This document shows positions 52,574 through 59,288 of a stretch of 64,000 nucleotides of DNA, in pieces. Source of the DNA: Methyloglobulus morosus KoM1 (GTDB taxonomy: Bacteria; Pseudomonadota; Gammaproteobacteria; Methylococcales; Methylomonadaceae). Made by a program: the position numbers and the translations under genes. The stretch lies in NCBI RefSeq assembly GCF_000496735.2, contig NZ_AYLO01000011.1, forward strand, positions 1-64,000. The letters are read 5' to 3'. Positions within the stretch are counted from its first letter, which is position 1, and every line of letters begins with the position of its first letter. The notes under the pieces are model-generated. The model was not told the DNA's origin. It searched no databases and worked only from the letters and a program-made list of their open reading frames with translations.

Positions 52574-52957
52574 CTATTTTTTGATGTAAACATTCCATGC
52601 CCGCAACGCATTGCAACCGTCATTGCTTTCGGATGTCACTTTAATCCACGCCTTACCTTCCAGCAAGGGTTCTGACAACTTGCCCTTGACACGGTAATGC
52701 CCGCTAGCAAGCGGGACTATGTCGACATCAAGCAATTTATTATTCACCCACACCTTGATGGTCTTACCATCGGTATTGTCTGAAGTCATAAACTCGAATT
52801 CTTGGAATGAGCTGACTTGGGCATTGTCGAGGGGCTTTTCTTGCATAAACTTCGGCGGATGGCAGGTGACAATAAAATCGCCATGATGTCCGGTACGCGC
52901 GCCCGCAATGGCATTTGCCGACATCAGCAAGCCTAATAAAAAAAGACTGTTTTTCAT
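52574..52957 (-). CDS. Unknown secreted protein
   Basis: 127 residues from the ATG at 52957, which gives a clear signal peptide (MKNSLFLLGLLMSANAIAGA); the frame is open further upstream. Mature part contains HHGDFIVTCHPP and two more cysteines near the C-terminus (NDGCNALRAW), so a disulfide is possible. Beta-rich, periplasmic. No family recognised. Confidence 0.7.
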   Translation of the reverse strand: MKNSLFLLGLLMSANAIAGARTGHHGDFIVTCHPPKFMQEKPLDNAQVSSFQEFEFMTSDNTDGKTIKVWVNNKLLDVDIVPLASGHYRVKGKLSEPLLEGKAWIKVTSESNDGCNALRAWNVYIKK

Positions 52958-53168
52958 AAAGTGTGACCCTCTCTTATTTTTATATGTAGTTAACAACTGT
53001 TCCGGGATCATAAAATGAACTTTGGTTGCCTTTGAGTCCATCGTACCCTGACGTTAATGTATATCCTTTTACACAAATCGTGTTGATGTGAATCAAAATT
53101 CAGATTGTAAAATTAAACCTTATCTATCCAGGATCGAGGAATGATGCTTAATCCTATATAATAAAAGC

Positions 53169-53747
53169 ATGATTTCAATCGACCAAATCAACGCCATCCT
53201 CCCCCAAACCCAATGCGGACAGTGCGGCTATAAGGGTTGTAAGCCGTATGCGGAAGCGATCGCCTTGGGTCGAGCCGACATTAACCAATGTCCGCCAGGG
53301 GGCGATGAGGGCATTTTGGAGTTGGCTACGTTATTGGAATTAAAGACTAAGCCGTTAAATCCTGAGTTTGGGGTGCATAAGCCCAAGCACGTTGCGTTTA
53401 TTGTTGAAGAGGATTGCATCGGTTGCGCCAAGTGTATCGCCGCGTGTCCCGTGGATGCCATTTTGGGTGCGGCGAAGTTGATGCATACGGTGATCTCTGC
53501 GGAATGTACAGGTTGCGAATTATGCGTTGCACCGTGTCCAGTTGATTGCATTGAGATGAAACCGCTATCTATCGCACTTTCTCTAGCACAAAAATCCGCC
53601 TGCAAAATGACGGCAATGCGCCGCTATGAGGCACGGAATCGCCGTAAAGCTTACGAGGCTTTGGAAAAAGCTGAAAAGGTAAGGAAACAGAAAGAAGCGT
53701 TGTTGCTTATGCATTCTGATACCGGTATTGATAGATCTTCAGCCTAA
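53169..53747 (+). CDS. rsxB: RnfB/RsxB-like Fe-S protein without membrane anchor
   Basis: 192 residues. A four-cysteine cluster motif ([14 protein letters not shown] ... NQCPPGGD) and two ferredoxin-type 4Fe-4S motifs ([12 protein letters not shown] and [12 protein letters not shown]). The usual hydrophobic N-terminal helix of RnfB is missing: the protein starts at the cluster region. A Lys/Glu-rich tail follows. Adjacent to nth, as in gammaproteobacteria with an rnf/rsx operon, but no other rnf gene lies here. Confidence 0.85.
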
Positions 53748-53758
53748 GCGTACCCCTA

Positions 53759-54397
53759 ATGAACCAACAAAAAAGACAGGGCATTTTCGATCGCCTTGCC
53801 GAAGCCATTCCAGAACCTACCACTGAACTGAATTATTCCACAGCGTTTGAATTACTCATCGCCGTGGTGTTGTCGGCGCAAGCCACCGATGTCGGCGTTA
53901 ACAAGGCGACCGCAAAACTGTTCCCAGTCGCCAACACGCCGGAAGCGATTTTGGCTTTGGGCTTAGAAGGCCTGAAAGCCTACATCAAAACCATCGGTTT
54001 GTTTAATGCCAAAGCCGCCAATATCATCTCACTCTGTCAGCAATTATTGGATAAGCATAAAGGAAAAGTGCCTGAAACCAGGGCGGAACTTGAAGCCCTG
54101 GCGGGTGTCGGAAGAAAGACCGCCAATGTCATTCTCAACACGGCATTTGGTCAGCATACGATAGCCGTGGATACGCATATCTTCCGTGTTTCTAACCGCA
54201 CCAAGATTGCGCCCGGTAAAAATGTGCTGGAAGTCGAGCGCAAATTGGATAAATGGGTGCCTAAAGGCCACAAAAAAAATGCCCATCATTTACTAATTTT
54301 GCACGGGCGGTATACTTGCGTTGCGAGAAAACCGAAGTGTGGTCAGTGTGTTATTGCTGATTTGTGCGAATACGACAATAAAGCCGTAAATAGCTAA
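53759..54397 (+). CDS. nth: Endonuclease III
   Basis: 212 residues. Helix-hairpin-helix and catalytic Lys/Asp region (LEALAGVGRKTANVILN, then AVDTHIFRVSNR), and the C-terminal [4Fe-4S] cluster C-x6-C-x2-C-x5-C in CVARKPKCGQCVIADLC. DNA glycosylase/AP lyase for oxidised pyrimidines. Follows the RsxB-like gene by 11 bases. Confidence 0.96.
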   Translation: MNQQKRQGIFDRLAEAIPEPTTELNYSTAFELLIAVVLSAQATDVGVNKATAKLFPVANTPEAILALGLEGLKAYIKTIGLFNAKAANIISLCQQLLDKHKGKVPETRAELEALAGVGRKTANVILNTAFGQHTIAVDTHIFRVSNRTKIAPGKNVLEVERKLDKWVPKGHKKNAHHLLILHGRYTCVARKPKCGQCVIADLCEYDNKAVNS

Positions 54398-54564
54398 GAC
54401 GGCTAATCTTTGCTGGAAAGAAATCGGCGAGTTCTGTATAGTTTGTTTGTTTTACCGCCTACGTAAGGGTTATTCATTCCTTATTCAGCTCTGAAAGGAT
54501 ATCGTAACCCGCCTTCGGTATGAGAATATCGATGCTTAAAATTTATAACCCTGGAGATAACACG

Positions 54565-55140
54565 ATGAAGAAAATGAACAAAACCCCTTTAGCAGCCGCC
54601 ATGGGTGCCGCCCTGATTTCATCCTTTGCCGCAATGCCGGCCAATGCCGAAACCAATCCCTTTGGTATGACGGAATTGTCTTCAGGTTATATGCAATTGG
54701 CTGAAATGAAGTGCGGTGCGTCTATGGGCATGGCAGAACCTAAAAAAGCGGCCGAAGGTGCGTGCGCTGGCAGCAAAGCGGCACCAGCAGCCAAGAAAGC
54801 CGACGGTTCATGCGGCGAAGGCAAATGCGGCACCATGATGAAAGACGGCAAAATGAAAGAAGGCATGGAAAAATCCTGCGGTGCCATGATGAAAGGCAAG
54901 GAAGGCGCATGTGGCGATAAAAAGGCCGCAAAAGAAGGCAGTTGCGGTGCAGCCTGTGCCGAAGGCATGAAAAACTGCGAAGCGGCCAAAAAGATGGAAG
55001 GTGCATGCGGCGCTAAGATGAAAGGTTGCGGTGAAGGCATGACCGGTTGCACTGAAATGATGAAAAGTAAGGATGGTTCATGTGGTGCTACAAAAGCAGC
55101 GCCGCCAGCTGCAGCGCCTGCTGCACCAGTAACAAAATAA
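54565..55140 (+). CDS. bufA: Bufferin/HvfA-type RiPP precursor, Cys- and Met-rich
   Basis: 191 residues from the ATG at 54565 (GGAG site). Signal peptide 1-28 ending PANA; then NPFGMTELSSGYMQLAE, the conserved leader of HvfA-like precursors. The mature part is low-complexity with 13 cysteines and about 17 methionines. EGxCG occurs four times (87-ff, 113-ff, 125-ff, 146-ff), plus two DGSCG. Cys in such motifs is converted to oxazolone/thioamide groups by a DUF692 enzyme, and products bind copper. Length is large for the class. Followed by DUF692 and DUF2063 genes. Confidence 0.85.
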   Translation: MKKMNKTPLAAAMGAALISSFAAMPANAETNPFGMTELSSGYMQLAEMKCGASMGMAEPKKAAEGACAGSKAAPAAKKADGSCGEGKCGTMMKDGKMKEGMEKSCGAMMKGKEGACGDKKAAKEGSCGAACAEGMKNCEAAKKMEGACGAKMKGCGEGMTGCTEMMKSKDGSCGATKAAPPAAAPAAPVTK

Positions 55141-55185
55141 GCTTCGCAAGCGTATTAACCGTCCACGCAATGAAGGAGGGCTGTC

Positions 55186-56070
55186 ATGCCCTCCTTTTAC
55201 AACTATCAAGGTGTTCAAATGGACACAACTCCCTATTTAGTCAATGATGCGGGCTTAGGGCTGCGTCGCCCACTCTTAAACCAAATTGTTGGCTCGCCCC
55301 CCGCTGATGTCGGGTTTTACGAAGTTGCGCCAGAAAACTGGATTACTATCGGCGGAAAATCCGGGAAACAGTTTCGTTCCATGACGGAAAGGTTCGATTT
55401 TGTCTGCCATGGTTTATCCTTATCGCTAGGCAGCACTGATCCGCTGGATGAAACCTTTGTAATTGAAGTGAAAAGGTTTTTATCCGAACACGGTATCAAG
55501 TTATACAGCGAACACCTGAGTTATTGCAGCAAAGGCGGACACCTGTACGACCTGATGCCCATCCCGTTCACAGGGGAAGCCGTAACCCATGTGGCTACAC
55601 GGATCAAGCGGGTACAGGACATCCTGGAACAACGTATCGCCATCGAAAATGTCTCTTATTACGCCGCACCCGGCCAAGAAATGGACGAGATTGATTTTTT
55701 CAATGCGGTTGTCAACGAAGCCGACTGCAACGTGTTGTTGGACATCAACAATATCTACGTCAATAGCGTCAATCATGGTTACGATGCCGACGCGTTCCTA
55801 AAAGCCATACCCGCCCATCGGATTGCTTATGCCCATATTGCCGGACATTACGTGGAAGCCGAGGATTTCCTGATCGACACCCACGGCGCAGACATCATCG
55901 ATCCGGTCTGGAAGCTGCTGGGGAAAGCATACGAGCTGTTTGGCGTGTTCCCAACTTTGTTGGAGCGCGATTTTAATCTTCCGCCTTTAGTGGAATTGTT
56001 GAAGGAAGTCAATACCATCAAAACAATCCAGGGCGATTGGCGAATTCAACACGAAAGAAAATCAGCCTGA
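55186..56070 (+). CDS. bufB: MNIO-family (DUF692) RiPP-modifying enzyme
   Basis: 294 residues, TIM-barrel-like, with GGAGG ribosome site. Metal-ligand candidates typical of multinuclear non-heme iron oxidases: H75, E109/H110, E154, D186, H217/H221, D231/H233 and E260. The family includes MbnB of methanobactin synthesis and BufB/HvfB. It should oxidise Cys residues in the precursor encoded just upstream. The start is inside the presumed operon, 45 bases after the precursor gene. Confidence 0.9.
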   Translation: MPSFYNYQGVQMDTTPYLVNDAGLGLRRPLLNQIVGSPPADVGFYEVAPENWITIGGKSGKQFRSMTERFDFVCHGLSLSLGSTDPLDETFVIEVKRFLSEHGIKLYSEHLSYCSKGGHLYDLMPIPFTGEAVTHVATRIKRVQDILEQRIAIENVSYYAAPGQEMDEIDFFNAVVNEADCNVLLDINNIYVNSVNHGYDADAFLKAIPAHRIAYAHIAGHYVEAEDFLIDTHGADIIDPVWKLLGKAYELFGVFPTLLERDFNLPPLVELLKEVNTIKTIQGDWRIQHERKSA

Positions 56071-56072
56071 CC

Positions 56073-56822
56073 ATGTCCGTCGATTTCAATGCCAAACAAC
56101 GCGAATTCACCGATTACATACGTGATCCCGCAAGGAATCCCGCACCAAGCGACGTGAAATCCGAGCGGATGGCAATGTACCGGGAGTTGGTGTTCAATAA
56201 TATAGAAAGTTTCCTGTCCGGCAATTTCCCCGTCATCCGAAAGCTATTGGACGACCCGCAATGGTTTGATCTGGTGCAAGAATTTTTTTCCAAACACGAA
56301 TGCAAAACACCTTATTTTTCTGAAATTGCCGAAGAATTTTTGGATTTTCTGGAAAATGAAAGGGACAATCCAGACGATTTCCCTTTTTTGCTGGAACTGG
56401 CGCACTACGAGTGGGTCGAAATGGCCCTGTCCATAGCCAAAGAGGATATTACTGCGTACCCCATAATACCGGATGATTTTCGCCATCGCGCAATACAACT
56501 TTCACCTGTAGCCTGGCCGCTGGCCTACCAATTTCCTGTCCAGCTTATCTCACCCGACTATTTGCCGCTGGAACCGCCAGGGCAACTGACTTGCCTACTA
56601 GCCTACCGCGCACAGGACGACGAGGTGAAGTTTATTGAAATCAATACCTTTACCTACAGGATGCTGGAAATCATCCAGGAGCATGGACAAATAGTGGCTG
56701 AAGAGTGCTTAAAGCAAATTAGCCAAGAAACGCAACACCCGGATCCCGAGGTCGTCATTGCCGGAGGTTTGCAGACACTCAAAGAATTTGCCAAGAAGAC
56801 CGTCATTTCGGTCTGTGGATAA
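56073..56822 (+). CDS. bufC: DUF2063 protein, partner of the MNIO enzyme
   Basis: 249 residues from the ATG at 56073, two bases after the bufB stop. N-terminal DUF2063 segment (FTDYIRDPARNPAPSDVKSERMAMYRELVFNNI) that binds the precursor and enzyme; C-terminal half a helical domain. In related systems it acts as a recognition partner for DUF692. No DoxX-type fourth gene follows. Confidence 0.9.
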   Translation: MSVDFNAKQREFTDYIRDPARNPAPSDVKSERMAMYRELVFNNIESFLSGNFPVIRKLLDDPQWFDLVQEFFSKHECKTPYFSEIAEEFLDFLENERDNPDDFPFLLELAHYEWVEMALSIAKEDITAYPIIPDDFRHRAIQLSPVAWPLAYQFPVQLISPDYLPLEPPGQLTCLLAYRAQDDEVKFIEINTFTYRMLEIIQEHGQIVAEECLKQISQETQHPDPEVVIAGGLQTLKEFAKKTVISVCG

Positions 56823-56899
56823 GCTTGATTGGTATTACACGCCCTAAAACCAACCCCTGGCATCATTAGATCCAGAGGCTGGAGCAATGCACGAACTTA

Positions 56900-57367
56900 C
56901 TATTGTGGCTTACCAAATAGCTTAGGCCCTTCCGGATGCGCTTTTTCCTGTAGGCATTCGTAAGCAGCGGCTTCAAATTTGATACGCAAGGATTGCGGGT
57001 TCTCGTGTTCCGTAATAAATTTTTCGGCTTCCTGGGCGGTCAAATCTTTCATCATGTACGTTGCAATGCATTCGCAGGATTTGGTCAAGCGTTCTGCATC
57101 CTCAATTTTGTTGGTTGAATTGTTCAACTCCCGGTCGACGCATTGCGCAGCAAAATCATGTTCAAACTGGTGTTTTTGCATGTCGGTAACTTCGGGACCG
57201 TGAGGATGGTCGAAGCTATGCTGCTCAACTTTGGGAGTTTGATCTTGAACGACGGCTTGCTCTTGCTTGGGTTTTTCTTCATCAGAACAACCCGCTAAGG
57301 TGAAAACAATGGCCGTGCTTATTAAAATGGAAAAAACAAGATTTTGTTGATGGTGTAAATTTTTCAT
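56900..57367 (-). CDS. Unknown lipoprotein
   Basis: 155 residues from the ATG at 57367. Signal peptide with lipobox VFTLAGC, so the Cys becomes lipidated and the protein anchors in a membrane. Acidic with a Pro/Gln-rich linker after the Cys, four more cysteines (AAQCV, KSCEC, AYEC), and a histidine-rich stretch (EQHSFDHPHGPE). Convergent with the bufferin operon. A metal-binding role is possible but unproven. Confidence 0.78.
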   Translation of the reverse strand: MKNLHHQQNLVFSILISTAIVFTLAGCSDEEKPKQEQAVVQDQTPKVEQHSFDHPHGPEVTDMQKHQFEHDFAAQCVDRELNNSTNKIEDAERLTKSCECIATYMMKDLTAQEAEKFITEHENPQSLRIKFEAAAYECLQEKAHPEGPKLFGKPQ

Positions 57368-57530
57368 ACGTTTATCGTTATTAGTGTTGTTGGCTATGAC
57401 ATTATAAAACACAGGACATTACCAAGCCTGTTTTTTGCTGACTATCCTGGACATTTCAAGTCTTGAAGGCGCAAGCTAAGGTAAAAATTGTTGTTTTATA
57501 CCTTAAGTCTTACGCCTTGTACCTAATCTA

Positions 57531-59081
57531 TCATTTTTCAGTTACTCGTACATCTATACGACGGTTCTTCTGCTGTCCTTCGGGCGTGTCATTACTGGCA
57601 ACGGAATTATCGCTGCCGTAACCTTCGGTTTCAATACGATCTCCCTTAATACCTTTGCTCACTAAGGCTTGTTTAACGGCTTTAGCGCGGTTATCGGACA
57701 GTGTTTTGTTGGCATTCGCTTTGCCTGTATTGTCCGTATAGCCTCCAATTTTGATTTTGACTTTTGGATAGGCTTTCAGGATTTCAGCAATATCATTGAT
57801 TTGTATCGTTGATTCTTCTTTGATAGTGGCTTTGTTCGTGTCGAAGGTGATGCCATCCATAGTAAACCATAGGTCCTTGCTAACGGCTTCGCCCCCTTCA
57901 ATAAAGCCGAGCAATTTGCTTACAAATCCGTCTTTAGCTGATTTGATGGCATAACCGTCAGATAAGGTTTTCTCAAAGATATTGCTGTCAGTGGCGGGTG
58001 CCTCGACTTTGGCCGGTTCAGGAGCAGTGGGCGTGGGCGGCGGAGCGGCGACAACGGGCGCTGCCGGCGGCAGGCTCGTTTCCTGTGGTGGCGCAACACT
58101 AGGCGCGGTGGTGGTTGTGGGCGCTGTAGCATTTGTGGCCGGATCGGGAACACTACAACTTTTCAACAACCCCCAAGCCAGCGCGAGCGCCGCTAAAATC
58201 AGTATCCAGGGCAGGAATTTACCGCCTTCACCCGCGCCTTCCTCGATTGCAACTGCGGCACTATGCGAAAACTCTTTGCTTTCTTCAATGCGTTGCGAGT
58301 CCAATTGAACGACTGATTTATCAATGTCTTCAGCCATATTCTCGGCAGAAGATGAGGTTTCTTCGGCAATGTCCTCAATTTCGTCTTCAATTTCGTCATC
58401 GATACTAACTAAGGTATCGCTCACGATGGTTGCCGTGTTGGTGGGGCTTGTCGGTGCAGTACCGTTGGCATCCGATTGATTAGCGGCCTTATCGAAGTCA
58501 CTTATCGTGTTGCCGGCAGTCGCAGCGGCATCAGCCGAAATGACGCCTGTCAACAGACTGCTGAGACCCGCAGGGATGGCATCCTTTAAGAACCCGCTTT
58601 GGTCGCTTAACAGGCTTGCCAAGCCGCTAGCACTGTTGGTGCCGCCAATCTTTAGGTTTTTGCCGACCATACCCAAAACGAGAGGTGTAATAAAGCCGAG
58701 CAAAGAGCCTGTAGCTTTTTTGCCAATACCGTTTGCGTTAGCGATCAGGTCAGTAATTGCGTCGGAGTTATCGCCGAAAAGTGATGTCAATAAATGCCTG
58801 CCCTCAGACACTAATTTGGCGGTTTCGTCGCCTCCTCGCGATAATGCGCCGAGATTGCTAAGCACCCCGCCATCATGGTTGCCTTCGCTTAATAGCTTAA
58901 ACAGGTTGCCGATACTGTTGGAATCGGTACCCTGCCCTACCAATCCAGCAAGCACTGTAGGCAGTGCGGTATTCAGCGCGGATGCCGTGTTGGCTGGGGA
59001 TTCCCCGATGAACGCTGCGAGGTTCGAGACGACATCACCCGAAAGGTGCTGTTTTAATGATTCTAATAGGTTGTTGGACAT
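57531..59081 (-). CDS. DUF937 and OmpA-like fusion protein
   Basis: 516 residues from the ATG at 59081 (AGGAG site). N-terminal DUF937 region with repeated SNLAAFIGESPAN and LPTVLAGLVGQG segments (about 1-190); a linker; a transmembrane segment (FLPWILILAALALAWGLL); a long Pro/Ala/Thr-rich stretch; C-terminal OmpA-like peptidoglycan-binding domain (IKIGGYTDNTGKANANKTLSDNRAKAV, then RRIDVRV). A periplasm-spanning architecture with the DUF937 part probably cytoplasmic. Function unknown. Confidence 0.85.
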   Translation of the reverse strand: MSNNLLESLKQHLSGDVVSNLAAFIGESPANTASALNTALPTVLAGLVGQGTDSNSIGNLFKLLSEGNHDGGVLSNLGALSRGGDETAKLVSEGRHLLTSLFGDNSDAITDLIANANGIGKKATGSLLGFITPLVLGMVGKNLKIGGTNSASGLASLLSDQSGFLKDAIPAGLSSLLTGVISADAAATAGNTISDFDKAANQSDANGTAPTSPTNTATIVSDTLVSIDDEIEDEIEDIAEETSSSAENMAEDIDKSVVQLDSQRIEESKEFSHSAAVAIEEGAGEGGKFLPWILILAALALAWGLLKSCSVPDPATNATAPTTTTAPSVAPPQETSLPPAAPVVAAPPPTPTAPEPAKVEAPATDSNIFEKTLSDGYAIKSAKDGFVSKLLGFIEGGEAVSKDLWFTMDGITFDTNKATIKEESTIQINDIAEILKAYPKVKIKIGGYTDNTGKANANKTLSDNRAKAVKQALVSKGIKGDRIETEGYGSDNSVASNDTPEGQQKNRRIDVRVTEK

Positions 59082-59288
59082 GTACGATCTCCTCATGGTT
59101 GGGCTAACACAGTCCACTGGATAAGTGCCAAAGCGCAATTTACCAGTATCAAGCTGTTTTGTTAATGAAAAGTTATTAATAACGCGGCAAAAAAATTAAA
59201 GAATAGGATATTTATCATTCTATACGGTTGTCTAAAAATTTTTAGCCTAATAGTGAAAACCGCTGCTTTTCTCCCTTCGCCTCTCGAC

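Follow-up and report, generated by a model that had tools for sequence, protein, structure and literature searches.

The 64,000-nucleotide stretch analysed here (the window; positions 1 to 64,000 of contig NZ_AYLO01000011.1 of Methyloglobulus morosus KoM1) carries three closely spaced genes encoding a secreted precursor rich in Cys and Met, a multinuclear non-haem iron-dependent oxidative enzyme (MNIO; DUF692) and a DUF2063 partner protein (Table 1), as expected for an operon that makes a ribosomally synthesized and post-translationally modified peptide (RiPP). An earlier note, made from the DNA alone, had pointed to this trio, and the three-gene observation is confirmed: coordinates and profile matches agree on the DUF692 and DUF2063 genes, with 45 bases between the precursor and MNIO genes and 2 between the MNIO and DUF2063 genes, and the precursor does have 13 Cys, while the count of about 17 Met holds from the NPF motif of the leader onward (17; 21 overall). 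An AAGGAGG at 55173 precedes the MNIO gene. The start of the precursor was set at 54565 because its homologues begin at the matching MKK..., despite an alternative in-frame ATG at 54520.

Table 1. Genes and sequence features of the operon (window positions)
Feature	Position	Strand	Basis
Direct repeat ATTCATT-N4-ATTCA upstream of precursor, candidate regulatory box	54472..54487	+	pattern search
Precursor gene, Met-rich HvfA-like RiPP, 191 aa, 13 Cys	54565..55140	+	open reading frame, profile matches, alignment
Signal peptide (MKKMNKTPL...ANA)	54565..54648	+	A-x-A end by eye, no dedicated predictor
Conserved leader ETNPFGMTELSSGYMQLA	54649..54702	+	alignment A1
Module 1 (EMKCGASMGM...EGACAG), 2 Cys, 3 Met	54703..54771	+	alignment
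Module 2 (CGxMMxDGKMKxGMExxCGxMMKGKEGACG), 4 Cys, 6 Met, CGxMM twice	54802..54915	+	alignment
Module 3, C-x3-M-x2-C heptads, 7 Cys, 6 Met	54934..55086	+	alignment
HvfB-type MNIO gene, 294 aa	55186..56070	+	profile matches
HvfC partner gene (DUF2063 + NGO1945_C), 249 aa, ATG at 56073	56073..56822	+	profile matches

The MNIO matches PF05114 at 348 bits and the HvfB equivalog NF003818 at 434 bits (cut-off 360), and stays below the cut-offs for BufB (267 bits against 310) and MbnB (49 bits against 325). Its partner matches PF09836 and PF22106 and exceeds the cut-off for HvfC by a wide margin (NF050145, 308 bits against 142). Among solved structures, the MNIO is nearest in sequence to 3BWW (239 bits) and the partner to 3DEE (44 bits), both of which PMC12668002 assigns to such RiPP clusters; the same source gives a Phe after the catalytic Asp, as found in the window MNIO (LLERDFNLPP), as a mark of the Lys-Cys class. 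Judged by these matches, the operon belongs to the HvfABC/Buf_EGKCG branch (‘oxazolin’, ‘captophorin’) and not to bufferin 1 or 2. The label ‘bufferin-type’ given to it earlier must therefore be dropped, since HvfB and HvfC are over their cut-offs and BufB is under, and the precursor has no DUF2282 match. The broader claim, membership in the MNIO and DUF2063 systems that make Cys-modified copper peptides, is upheld by the HvfB and HvfC matches, and the first reading of the operon is, overall, partly supported.

About 2,000 EGKCG-type precursors with MNIO/DUF2063 enzymes, 31-506 residues long, are described in PMC12452194, so the window precursor, at 191 aa, is not unusually long as had been thought, and its relatives reach 271 aa. 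It has the leader type and gene position of HvfA, but it scores below the cut-offs of both HvfA models. The ‘EGxCG repeats’ first seen in it were a loose description: there is a single EGKCG, but nine Cys-Gly sites exist if E/D-G-A/S-C-G and other contexts are included. The residue following the 13 Cys is Gly in nine cases, Ala in two, and Glu and Thr in one each. In related systems, Cys is converted to 5-thiooxazole with a loss of 4 Da and the product binds copper, according to PMC12668002, PMC12538549 and PMC13419390. The first of these reports that FonBC requires the residue following Cys to be small and refuses a charged one there; A, R or T may precede the Cys. The Cys contexts of the window precursor fit this acceptance, and because FonBC wants a small residue after Cys (nine Cys-Gly and two Cys-Ala sites here), 9 to 11 Cys of the window precursor are expected to be modified.

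To follow the precursor across relatives, we scanned for MNIO genes in one genome per species, which gave at least 80 loci. Sixty-six precursors were extracted, and after removal of L002 (a copy of the window) and of L009 and L028 (runs of N), 63 remained: 61 from these loci, that of the window and that of L004, the paralogous locus of the same genome. In 15 of the 80 MNIO loci the upstream region yielded no precursor, and the start rule missed L010 and L036 although they carry CGxMM. Record titles, together with the MNIO tree, were used to define a set of 15 precursors from outside methanotrophs; it includes L074 and L080, the latter of which may come from G006, a member of the window's order. 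The CGxMM motif occurs in 41 of the 63 precursors and in none of these 15. Within the 41, it occurs 133 times, against 0.9 in shuffled sequences, and C-x3-M-x2-C occurs 27 times, against 2.4. The median Met fraction after NPF is 11.8% in the CGxMM precursors and 4.9% in the set from outside methanotrophs (p=2e-7, a value that ignores kinship); the window precursor stands at 10.6% (17/161).

Both Cys and Met are held by selection. Across 63 related pairs, Cys is kept at 98.7% and Met at 93.3% of aligned positions, followed by Gly (88.0%), Lys (87.5%), Glu (86.7%) and Ala (73.7%), and an identity-scored alignment of 64 pairs again put Cys first (98.4%) and Met second (93.0%). The ratio of non-synonymous to synonymous substitution rates (dN/dS) of the precursor, with the first 30 residues excluded, is 0.04-0.23 in 11 chosen pairs. 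The closest MNIO among the matches listed, at 91% identity, is that of a Methyloglobulus metagenome-assembled genome (L005), which has the same kind of precursor; dN/dS between the two precursors is 0.06, a rough value because dS is 1.68. This pair, together with the CGxMM excess over shuffles, argues that the operon is not a chance arrangement. A quick tree of 82 MNIO rows joins the window and L005 as a pair (SH-aLRT 86). On this tree 6 changes of the CGxMM label are needed, against 27.7 in shuffles; here the label of L010 was set by hand, and those of L009, L028 and L036 (‘none’) are extraction artefacts.

These results bear on one alternative, a standard HvfABC system whose Met is baggage from repeat expansion of a low-complexity sequence and has no role as a ligand. 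The sequence is indeed of low complexity, and both the number of repeats and the modules are free to vary; one precursor (L017) lacks module 2 and keeps modules 1 and 3. In alignment A1, module 2 is present in 27/28 precursors and module 3 in 10/28, and in the window precursor an Ala-Pro tail follows module 3. Against this alternative, Met is retained more often than the Gly, Lys and Glu of the same repeats, purifying selection is strong, and precursors that have become unlinked from their enzymes remain Met-rich. We regard this alternative as quite unlikely.

Such unlinking is seen in genus g4, which includes a symbiont of the deep-sea mussel Bathymodiolus. No intact precursor lies beside the MNIO in 5/5 loci examined (G138, G020, G069, G098 and G114), and in 5/5 a Met-rich precursor is found elsewhere in the genome, away from the MNIO and HvfC genes (precursors L162-L167 and L171; MNIO loci L144 and L174-L177). 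In G069, a 61-aa frame beside the MNIO has the leader and no Cys. The seven distinct g4 precursors reach 271 aa and 43 Met, one of them with (MGDMKG)n repeats; after NPF they have 164-243 residues with up to 42 Met, and their Met content there reaches 18.5%. Several adjoin what appears by eye to be a succinyl-CoA ligase gene.

Gene arrangement varies in other ways as well. In L052 (2421-4849), as also in L174 and L175, the MNIO comes after genes for a factor of the sigma-70 family and an anti-sigma-like zf-HC2 protein (Pfam-checked in L052) and after a DoxX-looking gene. In Methylomonas-type loci, a VTT/DedA-like gene lies between precursor and MNIO (L034, 3416-3997, Pfam-checked; L043, 3450-4013). 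HvfC, MNIO and precursor of G147 (genus g22; L141, L178) are on three contigs, with no partner gene next to HvfC or MNIO, and the genes look scattered. Ahead of the precursor in L019 and L023, and in L168 (1240-1959), there is a further precursor gene in tandem or the end of one.

The very high Met content raises the possibility of an oxidant scavenger, whose Met and Cys would be sacrificed as a pool of periplasmic sulfur, with metal binding secondary. MrpX is an example of a Met-rich peptide paired with a Met sulfoxide reductase. The g4 values above would suit this role, and an extracytoplasmic function (ECF)-type promoter-like site, G[AG]AACT-N15-17-GTC, lies before 8/15 precursors from outside methanotrophs, 7/41 CGxMM precursors and 0/7 others (shuffles <0.2). 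Oxidored_molybd genes also occur in small numbers of oxazolin operons, as stated in PMC12452194. However, a scavenger would have no need of Met fixed next to Cys-Gly, no Met sulfoxide reductase is found among the five neighbouring proteins scanned, and the region ahead of the window precursor did not show the ECF-like site. We consider a scavenger very unlikely. The window precursor is preceded by the ATTCATT...ATTCA repeat, found upstream of 9/41 CGxMM precursors including that of the window, where shuffling predicts 0.01. Both upstream patterns are leads, as they were chosen after viewing the sequences. No RNA element matched Rfam at gathering scores in 53700-57500. Predicted sigma-70 promoters and intrinsic terminators were as numerous as in shuffled sequence and were not used.

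The Met-rich precursor is largely a family trait. In the family to which the window belongs, probably GTDB Methylomonadaceae, a C-G-x-M-M-K DNA pattern matches 204 of 227 genomes, the window's own included. In the rest of the order it matches in 6/74 genomes, once in each. Outside the order, 23/183 genomes of a class sample match (24/185 with the window's own genome and one order member), a rate that looks like chance since one genome alone has two matches, 16 kb apart and on opposite strands. A stricter module 2 pattern matches 1/185 genomes of the class sample, the window itself, a figure that says nothing of sensitivity within the family. The precursor is thus Met-rich as the earlier note said, but as a trait of most of a bacterial family and not a peculiarity of this genome.

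HvfC exceeds its cut-off in 136/151 genomes of the order and 65/185 of the class sample, a contrast that is indicative since the samples were drawn differently. In 10/40 fetched loci a text rule recognised no MNIO, although three of these (L158-L160) do contain one. MbnB passes its cut-off in just 1/151 order genomes (G061 of family f4, C1 2433942-2434718, 403 bits). The prevalence of HvfC and the scarcity of MbnB are what would be expected if the modified peptide replaced methanobactin in type I methanotrophs, gathering or holding scarce copper for particulate methane monooxygenase, so that its role would be supply and not buffering. PMC3621798 notes that methanotrophs without a methanobactin operon exist and that any chalkophore there would be unlike the known methanobactins. 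Against a supply role, the operon has no transporter gene and the same enzymes occur in non-methanotrophs, and we find it unlikely, if less so than the other two alternatives.

The rest of the genome gives some context for copper. Three AMO/PmoA matches indicate a methanotroph host, in line with the earlier suggestion. Methanobactin was considered and rejected (best MbnB match 65 bits, cut-off 325), so the earlier idea of a copper peptide acting beside methanobactin is not supported for this genome. A Csp-type copper store was likewise rejected, with 0 DUF326 matches in the whole genome. Four MNIO genes are present. Besides that of the window, one belongs to a DUF2282 bufferin locus (L001) and one to an HvfABC locus with EGKCG repeats (L004, contig C162), both of which include DoxX; the fourth is in L003 (contig C108). 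In the HvfB paralogue of L004, which sits on a long branch of the MNIO tree, the catalytic Asp is followed by Val in place of Phe. In L003 (65-1465, 1474-3245), the MNIO and partner pair lies directly behind a 466-aa ferritin-like, Cys-rich protein, which is possibly a protein-size MNIO substrate.

Around the operon, the upstream genes encode endonuclease III (53759-54397) and a ferredoxin-type protein (53169-53747). The downstream neighbour, on the opposite strand, encodes a small protein with no Pfam family over cut-off. Two small proteins (56900-57370 and 52574-53041, both on the minus strand) have N-termini that look signal- or lipoprotein-like by eye and match no Pfam family over cut-off. 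A 535-aa protein (57531-59138, minus strand) has a DUF937 domain and, at its C-terminus, an OmpA domain.

Based on this analysis, we think it probable that the operon makes a captophorin-type RiPP that buffers or stores Cu(I) in the periplasm through thiooxazole and Met sulfur. Before export, HvfB with HvfC would oxidise Cys of the unfolded precursor to 5-thiooxazoles, each with a loss of 4 Da; the nine Cys before Gly and two before Ala would be the best sites. Once the Sec pathway had exported the product, several Cu(I) would be bound in the periplasm by thiooxazole thiols and by nearby Met thioethers, as in C-G-x-M-M and C-x3-M-x2-C. The added Met may be an adaptation of copper-hungry methanotrophs, making the Cu(I) ligands more numerous, softer and quicker to exchange, and the peptide might buffer or store periplasmic copper for particulate methane monooxygenase, besides detoxifying it. 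More tentatively, type I (gammaproteobacterial) methanotrophs, nearly all of them without MbnB, may have their own lineage-wide mixed-ligand thiooxazole-methionine copper RiPP for this enzyme, enlarged in g4, a proposal we consider possible but doubtful.

Several observations weigh against this reading. Enrichment in Met could by itself serve to scavenge oxidants, and the Met:Cys ratio of the window precursor (17:13) is at the low end of its group. The precursor misses both HvfA models (19.9 bits, cut-off 95; 15.4 bits, cut-off 19.5), and its sites are mostly A/S-C-G, not K-C-G, with Ser before Cys absent from what the available text of PMC12668002 says of FonBC. An AlphaFold model on alignment A1 gives no fold (mean predicted local distance difference test score, pLDDT, 48.7; predicted template modelling score, pTM, 0.17), and a beta-helix reported for another oxazolin precursor is neither supported nor refuted by this low-confidence model. 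A Pfam scan of the five neighbouring proteins finds no DoxX, copper protein or copper regulator, and the papers listed in an open-access literature search included no experiment on a methanotroph precursor and no data on copper binding or induction by metal stress for methanotrophs. The family trait is also incomplete: 23/227 family genomes lack the C-G-x-M-M-K pattern, and in genus g2 it is absent from 6/6 sampled genomes, although Met-containing precursors are kept in 3 fetched g2 loci. G004, of another family of the order (f5), has CGAMM twice (L139), and HvfC matches are weak in all 10 sampled genomes of f6. In f4, precursors are short, with 3-4 Cys, a median of 8.6% Met and no repeated motif (11/19 loci; the 8/19 fetched loci without a credible precursor were left uncounted); as these are fairly Met-rich without the motif, Met-richness is graded and not all-or-none.

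The operon offers a concrete candidate for the means by which gammaproteobacterial methanotrophs without methanobactin handle copper, one found in roughly 90% of the family genomes sampled. If the proposal is right, its product would also be a RiPP with both a modified Cys ligand and Met thioethers.

The system most like it is HvfABC/oxazolin with the captophorins fontiphorin and gonophorin, which have the same Cys-rich precursor with signal peptide, HvfB MNIO and DUF2063 partner in the order A-B-C, together with Cys-Gly sites; the NPF leader is as in the related precursors extracted here. The window precursor differs in mostly swapping EGKCG for E/D-G-A/S-C-G, in its C-G-x-M-M repeats, C-x3-M-x2-C heptads and Met content after NPF, and DoxX was not found beside its operon. 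Bulbicupramide (the mmr cluster of Microbulbifer) has the same MNIO/DUF2063 pair, obligate lineage conservation and copper chelation, as described in PMC12538549. However, its own precursor has five to eight EGKCG Cys, and ‘methionine’ is absent from the main text of that paper. Bufferins 1 (DUF2282) and 2 likewise combine MNIO and DUF2063 proteins with a signal peptide and a relation to copper, whereas the window precursor has no DUF2282 or any other Pfam match and its MNIO falls short of the BufB cut-off. Methanobactin (MbnABC) also relies on a DUF692 superfamily enzyme acting on Cys and on copper, but the window operon has a long signal-peptide precursor and a DUF2063 partner, and its MNIO scores far below the MbnB cut-off. 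The Met-rich copper proteins of the PcoA/CopB type use clustered Met, unmodified, as soft copper ligands; the window precursor has clustered Met as well, joined in a RiPP precursor with candidate thiooxazole Cys. Our open-access literature search listed no paper on a Met-rich copper RiPP of methanotrophs, and the main texts of PMC12452194 and PMC13097082 contain neither ‘methionine’ nor ‘Met-rich’, and name methanotrophs or Methylo- genera in their references alone. The enzyme system is one already known, and the Met-loaded precursor is the new part.
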